Source: Asterochloris sp. CNOR1
Lineage: Eukaryota; Chlorophyta; Trebouxiophyceae; Trebouxiales; Trebouxiaceae
Direction of reading: 5' to 3'
Length of the DNA: 64,000 nt
NCBI GenBank assembly: GCA_963969365.1
Contig: OZ017760.1
Location: forward strand, 1,116,001-1,180,000
The position numbers and the translations under genes are program-made. Every line of letters begins with the position of its first letter. Position 1 is the first letter of the stretch. Below are positions 35,591-37,850 of the stretch, in pieces. The notes below the pieces were generated by a model, which was not told the DNA's origin, did no database searches, and was given only the letters and a program-made list of their open reading frames with translations.

Positions 35591-37720
35591 ATGCCTGGAG
35601 CATGCTCCATGTCCAGTCTGATATGTTCCACGAGACAGGCTGCACTGTCACCCAGATGCAGACGCAGCATCCCAGTAAGAGCAGGCCTCCAACCGGGGCC
35701 TTCTCGGCGTGAGCTGCTGCTGGGAGCAGGCATGTCTGCAGCAGGACTGGTCCTGCCACAGGGTGGGACGATCGGCAAAGCAAATCCTGTGCAGGGTACT
35801 GCCTTGCTGCTGACATCTCAGCTCTTGTTCAGGCCTGCTGGCTCGTGAGCAGTCAGCCTATGACTTTGTAGCCGACATGAGTGGCCAGCAGGTCGCACTA
35901 TCCAAGTACTGCAAGGGCAAGGTGTGCAGACTGGACTGGTGCCAGCAAAGGTGTCTGAGCAAGCCAGATGAGACGGCCGTCAACTTGGTTGTCAGCAGAC
36001 TCTTTCCCGCAAACCAAAAGCAATGCTTTGATGCCTTGAGCTCCTGGTCTGTCGTGTGCGCCTCCCCTCATCTCTGGTGTCCACACTCCAGCTGCTGTGT
36101 CCTGTCTTGAAGCCTTGCAGCCATAGTATGCAGGTGTCAGTCATCATGAATCTGGCCAGCGAATGACCCCTGCAGGTGGGTCGTGTGTGTCTCTGCCGGC
36201 TTCACGTTGTGGCTGGGACAGGTGCATCTGGTGTGGCTCAGCTGTCCCATCCATCCTGTTCACTGACACGCCCATTGGCCTTGTGCTGCCTTGCAGCTCA
36301 GCCTGCTGTGGCTGAATAACCTGCAAGCCCTTCTGCTGCCTCTCTGCACAGCCTGCACATGTTGCAAGCTGTTTCCACTGCATTGCTGCGCAGCCTGCAC
36401 CACAGCCTGTGAGGCCCCCTTTTGCAGAACGTCAACTACCCTAGCCTCAAGGAGCTGAGTCAGAAGTATGGCCCTGATGGCTTTGTGCTGGTTGGCTTTC
36501 CCTGCAATCAGTTTGGAGGCCAGGCACCTGGCAGCTCTGAGGAGGAAAGGAAGTGGGTTCACCTAGTGGTTTGGACATCAGCTGCACGATCTTACTTGCA
36601 CATGCTGAAGAGGAAAGGAACCAAAAGCCTGCCTGCCGCCTCTTCCTTTGCACAAGCTTGCAACTGTAGGCTGGAATGCCATCTGTGACTGCTGATGGGC
36701 CTGCTGTGCTTACAGATGGGCGTATTTCAAGTTCAAGACAGAGTTCCCAGTGTTTGTGAGTCTTTATTGTGAGCCTGTCATTGCTGAGTGCAGATTGCAT
36801 GTGCTCGCAGAACAATACAAAAATTGGTGTCTGTATGTGCTGGGTGTCTGCGGCCCAAGCCTGCCAGGCATTCATAATGCAGCCAGCGTCTGGATCTTGT
36901 GTCAAGCACATGCCTGCGCCCCATCAGAGTAGTGCTTGCACAGTCAGAACCTTGTGGCTGCCTTCAGGACAAGATTGAAGTCAATGGAGATGGTGCACAC
37001 CCTCTGTACAAATTCCTAAAGGCAAAGCAGCCTGAGTCGCTCCCAACCAGCTCCCTGCCGCGGCCTGCCTTTGTGGGGCAGCCAGGCAGCATCGAGTGGA
37101 ACTAGTGAGTGGCAGCCTGCACCCTGCTGGTGCTGCAGCATACAGGGGTCTGCAGCGATGGCCATATGCCTTTGTACCTGCAGCAAACAGTGCTTGTCCA
37201 GCTCTGATGTCAACATTGCAGTCAATGTCAGCAATGCTTGTTGTGCCCTGCAGCACTAAATTCTTGGTGGACCGTGGCGGGAACCCAGTGCGGCGTTTCA
37301 AGTCTGGCTTTGACCCAATGAGCTTCGAGGATGATGTAAGCCTGATCACTGCCCATGTCCCTCCTCTGACTCTGCTCTGCACTGTTGTGTGGCAACAGTG
37401 CCTGCACAGCAGGTCGTTGCCGAAGCTGGACTGCTCCATCAGCCATGTGTGTTGTTGACAGCACATGTCTGCTGGCTGCAAATGCTAGAGCTGGAGTCCT
37501 CTATCAGCACTGCTTGTCCCAACACGCAGGCACTGGCTGTATGCGCTACAGCTGCAGTGCACCGTATGCTATGACTTGCAGCACAGAGCAGCCTGGCTTG
37601 CTCAGGCTGGAGTGCATGAATCTGCAGGTTAAACTCCTCCTGGCAGGCAAGCCGCCCCGTCCAGCAGAGTGTGCACGTGGCAGCGGAGGGAAGAAGTGCA
37701 AGGCGGAGACATACCTGTGA
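35591..37720 (+). CDS. GPX: Glutathione peroxidase, selenocysteine-containing, organelle-targeted
   Basis: It reduces hydroperoxides using glutathione or thioredoxin. Eight exons: 35591-35795, 35833-35921, 36134-36175, 36428-36552, 36716-36755, 36968-37104, 37254-37335 and 37628-37720. They join in phase to a 270-residue protein. Exon 3 is 14 codons long and reads VSVIMNLASE, then UGA at 36164-36166, then PLQ. This is the catalytic NVAS-x-Cys/Sec position, and skipping or ending at the UGA would destroy the enzyme. The other active-site residues are present: Gln in GFPCNQFGGQAPGS, and Trp and Asn in SIEWNYTKFLVDR. The first about 70 residues are a basic, Ser-rich presequence followed by SRRELLLGAGMSAAGLVLP, a twin-arginine signal. 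That suggests import into the chloroplast and then, by the Tat route, into the thylakoid lumen. A SECIS-like hairpin follows the stop codon. Sec-GPX is known from Chlamydomonas, so the type is precedented. Confidence 0.9.
36164..36166 (+). other. In-frame UGA, predicted selenocysteine codon
   Basis: The TGA lies in phase inside a 42-base exon bounded by CAG acceptor and CAG/GTGGGT donor, exactly at the peroxidatic Cys/Sec position (LASE-U-PL). Both neighbouring introns are phase 0, and sequence on each side is conserved GPX. Confidence 0.87.
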
Positions 37721-37764
37721 CCGAAGTAAATTTACCCACCCACAGCAGCCACCAGCTGAGCAAG

Positions 37765-37850
37765 AGATGCTAGCAGGAATCCATGGATATGATGATGGCA
37801 AGGCAAACCTTCTTGGCGCCTGCCATCTGACTGACAAAAGCTGCCTATGC
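37765..37850 (+). promoter_or_regulatory. SECIS-like element in GPX 3' UTR
   Basis: It begins about 45 bases after the stop codon. ATGA (37789-37792) and TGAC (37828-37831) can form the non-Watson-Crick core. Between them GATGGCA-A-GGC (37794-37804) pairs with GCCTGCCATC (37818-37827) with one bulged A. The apical loop opens with AAA (37805-37807), 12 bases after the ATGA, and a CC/GG mini-stem inside the loop would make it a type 2 SECIS. These are the invariant features of eukaryotic SECIS elements, which recruit SBP2 to recode UGA. The lower stem is less clear. Confidence 0.82.

Follow-up and report, generated by a model that had tools for sequence, protein, structure and literature searches.

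What does an in-frame UGA codon signify when it falls on the catalytic position of an enzyme gene, and where in the cell would the product of such a gene act? The question is raised by a glutathione peroxidase (GPX) gene of the green alga Asterochloris sp. CNOR1, which lies on the forward strand of a 64,000-nucleotide stretch of contig OZ017760.1 (positions 1,116,001 to 1,180,000; hereafter the window, in whose own coordinates all features are given). The reading proposed here, to which a probability of about 0.72 is assigned, is that of a functional nuclear gene for a selenocysteine (Sec) GPX, in which the exon carrying the UGA is kept, Sec is inserted under the direction of a Sec insertion sequence (SECIS) element, and the product would be imported into the chloroplast and then probably delivered to the thylakoid lumen.

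The active-site exon and its UGA codon

The 42-base exon 3 (36134-36175) is bordered by AG and GT, stands in phase 0 and reads VSVIMNLASE-U-PLQ, with the UGA (36164-36166) occupying the peroxidatic position of GPX, which we take to be the site of Sec in known enzymes of the family; an earlier note on this DNA had likewise described a phase-0 exon of 42 bases with the UGA at this site. The UGA, at codon 103 counting from the ATG at 35609, is the sole interruption of an eight-exon frame. With Cys written at this codon, the window protein matches the glutathione peroxidase profile PF00255 at 105.1 bits, compared with a gathering score of 27, and the catalytic Gln, Trp, and Asn are kept in it and in its family. 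The peroxidatic residue is Cys in eight of eight control rows. The UGA is almost surely decoded as Sec.

The earlier note also expected a gene finder to skip the exon, and the closest database match among the matches listed, the JGI model P0001 (jgi/Astpho2/8412; Astpho presumably denotes Asterochloris), does exactly so. Read from the ATG at 35591, the window protein differs from P0001 only in two segments that P0001 lacks: exon 3, with its 14 residues, and the last 11 residues of exon 1, whose donor P0001 places 33 bases earlier. P0001 splices K directly onto NVNYP. A protein search with region 70-115 of the window protein returned P0001 alone.

The hairpin and the insertion machinery

A SECIS element is recognized by its core, its helix, and its apical A residues, all of which occur in the 3′ untranslated region (UTR) of the GPX gene. 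The SECIS-like element (37789-37831) begins 68 bases 3′ of the stop codon and comprises AUGA (37789-37792), AAA (37805-37807) 12 bases further on, and UGAC (37828-37831). The core and the spacing of the AAA agree with the earlier note, and its stem of 11 base pairs gives way to a helix of 10 Watson–Crick pairs with one bulged A. A geometry scan that tolerates one bulge and asks for AA after 9-13 bases was run on the window in both orientations, and this element is its sole match with at least 9 of 10 helix pairs. Across 67 shuffles, matches arose at 0.19 per 64-kb strand with at least 9 pairs and 0.015 with 10, or about 0.0004 and 0.00003 per 130 nucleotides, rates that flatter the element, as the scan rule was drawn up with it in view.

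The genome assembly (56.4 Mb, 21 contigs, with the GPX gene on C15) was searched for the genes of Sec insertion, the lack of which would, according to the earlier note, have spoken against Sec. It contains tRNA-Sec (UCA), eEFSec, SBP2, SepSecS, and SelD, with PSTK weak. The tRNA-Sec model, which also has matches above cutoff in five of the 14 control genomes, finds four copies above cutoff, with the anticodon UCA; this is more than most eukaryotes are known to possess. Two of the tRNA-Sec genes stand in tandem about 400 bases apart (C7:2752475-2752954), and the other copies lie on C6 and C17. SepSecS is represented by six profile stretches on C3, and an eEFSec_4th match, found in none of the 14 control genomes, lies on C13 near SelB-like stretches of the same contig. 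An SBP2-like L7Ae exon matches SECIS-binding protein 2 of 7zjw (6.8e-11). In the proposed mechanism, the SECIS element in the 3′ UTR would recruit SBP2, eEFSec, and Sec-tRNA, so that UGA 36164-36166 is translated as Sec, yielding a GPX-type enzyme with one Sec beside Gln, Trp, and Asn and without Cys at the plant resolving position. Together, the exon, the hairpin, and the machinery support a Sec-GPX with a SECIS element as the best reading of the locus.

An algal clade without cysteine at the active site

Relatives were collected in two protein searches, of which the best 120 of 2714 and the best 120 of 1184 matches were used. The GPX tree has 118 rows, namely the window protein and 117 of the 120 listed in the first search (P0002, P0040, and P0112 were dropped, and matches of the second search were left out). 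The window protein falls within a 66-member algal clade with support of 100/99, and this clade includes GPX2 of Chlamydomonas. Cys at the site (A[ST].C) occurs in none of the 65 public members of the clade and in 53 of the 55 remaining rows of the first search. Forty-six of the 65 begin 2-14 residues past the site, 28 of them at exactly 5 past (the V of NVNYP), and 17 have upstream sequence yet drop or garble the site, including models from C. reinhardtii, C. incerta, C. schloesseri, Tetradesmus, Micractinium, Chlorella, and Coccomyxa. The last two, P0003 and P0005, read W at the site.

Two metagenomic members of the clade carry ASEWPL(Q/N)NVNYP, similar to LASE-U-PLQ of exon 3. The Pro after the site, which the earlier note regarded as uncommon, is thus present and not exclusive to this gene. 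Outside this pattern, the metagenomic GPXs P0125, P0126, P0137, P0167, P0229, and P0106 carry ASxWG, in which W takes the catalytic place and G comes next, and are probably further Sec-GPXs translated with UGA as Trp. A degenerate DNA pattern for the UGA site had no match in the viral contig set or in the genome contig set. A scan of the viral contigs for GPX relatives, of which 80 of 269 were kept, reached a top identity of 43%, and these are taken, by identity alone, to be phage or bacterial GPX.

Within the Asterochloris genome, PF00255 exceeds its cutoff not only at this gene on C15 but also at paralogs on C2 and C6, which read ASQCG at the site, and it has a weak match of 19.2 bits on C16.

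Gene model, leader, and C-terminal tail

The gene runs from 35609 or 35591 to 37720; all its junctions are AG/GT, and its frame contains a single UGA. The span given in the earlier note (36134..37850) covers the active-site exon and the SECIS element and omits exons 1 and 2, which include the putative targeting signal. Exon 1 (35591-35795, starting at ATG 35591 or 35609) encodes a putative transit peptide followed by a candidate twin-arginine signal, in the leader SRRELLLGAGMSAAGLVLPQ that stands ahead of SAYDF. Exon 2 (35833-35921) encodes GLLAREQSAYDFVADMSGQQVALSKYCKGK, and exon 3 is followed by exon 4 (36428-36552; NVNYPSLKEL...FPCNQFGGQAPGS), which supplies the catalytic Gln, exon 5 (36716-36755), exon 6 (36968-37104; DKIEVNGDGAHPLY...IEWN), which by gene model and family comparison supplies the catalytic Trp and Asn, and exon 7 (37254-37335; TKFLVDRGG...). 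Exon 8 (37628-37720) encodes the C-terminal tail with C-x8-C (AECARGSGGKKC) and ends with the UGA stop at 37718-37720. The gene is flanked upstream, on the opposite strand, by exosome RRP40-like exons at 33467-33955 and 34718-34987 (KH_6, RRP40_S1), and downstream by Kelch-repeat stretches at 38621-39715 (+).

The leader was compared with those of other GPXs by a single test for a twin-arginine translocation (Tat) signal, applied alike to clade and controls: RRx, then a pair of hydrophobic residues, then 18 residues whose mean hydropathy exceeds 0.8 and which carry at most two charges. The controls are 68 other GPXs of at least 200 residues, which are top search matches and not a random set. 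Upstream sequence is present in 19 clade rows, and 10 of these pass the test, including Asterochloris, Chlorella, Picochlorum, Chlamydomonas, Tetradesmus, and Bryopsis, compared with 0 of 68 controls. Without the hydropathy demand the counts are 10 of 19 and 2 of 68, both of these controls having a hydrophilic sequel to the arginines, and with zero charges allowed 6 of the 19 and none of the 68 pass. The leader suggests work inside the thylakoids, and a thylakoid-lumen selenoperoxidase is proposed: the transit peptide would direct import into the chloroplast, and the twin-arginine signal would then probably lead to the lumen, where the Sec enzyme would reduce peroxide.

A candidate reductant of the oxidized Sec is the tail. 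C-x8-C occurs within the last 48 residues in 60 of the 66 clade rows of the 118-row tree, compared with none of the 52 others; this tree was used for the count because the list of algal rows behind the resolving-position counts below had been selected in part for C-x8-C, which would make a count of the motif circular. The six clade rows without the motif look C-terminally broken or appear to read into introns. The tail lies outside the fold comparison (VIA-align, Foldseek), as this ends near model residue 190. From its conservation, C-x8-C may be regarded as the best candidate thiol pair for the reduction of Sec. The earlier note, whose Sec-GPX reading stands, missed the Tat-type leader, this tail, and the kinship with Chlamydomonas GPX2.

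At the 3′ end of the coding region, the bases 37718-37729 read UGA CCG AAG UAA, with UAA two codons beyond the gene's own UGA stop, and partial Sec readthrough of that stop is conceivable. Toward its C-terminus P0003 reads on across a W (KVDLSAW...), close to the ends of P0004 and P0058.

Points against and alternative readings

Several observations weigh against the proposed reading. The Rfam model SECIS_1 (RF00031) gives the element 16.2 bits, below its cutoff of 35, no Rfam family exceeds its own cutoff within the window, and the 123-nucleotide SECIS region is no more stable than its shuffles (z -0.31). A genome-wide SECIS_1 search found nothing over the cutoff and listed one weak match elsewhere and not the GPX element; with no match over its cutoff genome-wide, the model may be insensitive in this genome. 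SelD consists of five collinear stretches on C14, each below the whole-protein cutoff, and its model matches 14 of 14 control genomes, and PSTK is a single stretch scoring 25.6 bits where the cutoff is 382. As a positive control, other selenoproteins were sought in the genome and none was confirmed: PF10262 gave a single match, below cutoff, and TIGR01438 none above it. A GCUG motif considered as a selenoprotein stands beyond a glutathione-reductase-like exon, outside it, and is regarded as chance. The W in P0003 and P0005 would be UGA translated under a code in which UGA means Trp, and that this step has to be assumed also counts against the reading. At the plant resolving position (FVCTRF), Cys is found in 0 of 53 algal rows and, among the eight control rows, in just one, so that its absence is a weak argument.

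The alternative that survives best, although we consider it unlikely, is that of a true Sec-GPX residing in the stroma or another compartment, with the arginine pair and hydrophobic stretch being just the last part of the transit peptide, or being trimmed off. It is favored by Pfam TAT_signal, which scores the window leader at 13.1 bits, below the cutoff of 22.7, and by the few rows that pass the zero-charge test. Chlamydomonas CrGPxB is moreover listed as chloroplast-targeted, and chloroplast GPx is called stromal, in PMC3095285. The nine of 19 clade rows in which the motif is absent despite upstream sequence, and which look like 5′-partial or doubtful models, also count against the main reading. 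What speaks for the lumen is the recurrence of the pair with its hydrophobic stretch over six genera and its absence from the other long GPXs, where even the bare arginines with two hydrophobic residues are rare.

It is very improbable that exon 3, with its UGA, acts as a poison exon or marks a pseudogene, the working product being a form that skips it or being absent altogether. The frame does stay open upon skipping, as it does in P0001, but the peroxidatic residue and the surrounding active-site stretch are then lost, while the remaining catalytic residues are kept. The likeness of the exon to the metagenomic ASEWPLQ and ASEWPLN, the open reading frames that start just past the same codon in most of the clade, and the presence of a SECIS-like element with Sec machinery also argue for a mature mRNA that retains the 42 bases. 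Least credible of all is ordinary readthrough of the UGA, or its decoding as another amino acid, without SECIS, which could appeal to the hairpin's score below the Rfam cutoff but leaves aside the tRNA-Sec(UCA), eEFSec, and SBP2 in the genome and a UGA at what is presumably the Sec position of known GPX, occupied by Cys in every control row.

Relation to known systems and significance

In vertebrate GPX4, Gly directly follows Sec; the window protein differs from this and other monomeric Sec-GPX enzymes in its Pro after Sec, its Tat-type leader, and its C-x8-C tail. It shares the fold and the Gln, Trp, and Asn with the Cys-GPX of plants and protists (poplar GPX5, the trypanosome type), which have Cys at the site and, in P0071, also at the FVCTRF position. 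PrxQ is a Cys-based peroxiredoxin and belongs to a family other than GPX. According to PMC3095285, this thiol peroxidase resides in the thylakoid lumen, the compartment proposed for the window protein.

The nearest known system is GPX2 of Chlamydomonas reinhardtii (Cre08.g358525, P0014), which is named Sec-GPX2 in PMC9404770 and shares with the window protein its clade, the RR leader, and the C-x8-C tail, whereas the NCBI model P0014 lacks the site. CrGPxB, described in PMC3095285 as a chloroplast-targeted selenoprotein supported by reverse-transcription PCR, would be the same protein as Cre08.g358525, to judge from its length of 259 residues and the printed primers. Lumen targeting and the tail go unmentioned in the consulted sections of PMC9404770 and PMC3095285. 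Neither a thylakoid-lumen selenoprotein nor one from Asterochloris was found described in the open-access library searched (subscription papers fall mostly outside this scope), and the word Asterochloris occurs 0 times in the main texts of PMC7539508 and PMC6627142.

A broader proposal, possible but doubtful, places a selenoenzyme of the core green algae in the lumen, next to photosystem II on its water-splitting face. The enzyme would be exported by Tat in the folded state, and in place of glutathione its own C-x8-C, linked to a thiol relay of the lumen, would regenerate it. The enzymology of peroxide removal in the lumen is, to our knowledge, poorly understood. With this locus a lichen alga joins the record of Sec-GPX. 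The two W-readers aside, every clade model that includes upstream sequence (17 of 17) drops or garbles the catalytic residue. As a relative exists in Chlamydomonas, the idea of a lumen Sec-GPX is directly testable, and if the reading of the leader is true, selenium chemistry would extend into the thylakoid lumen.
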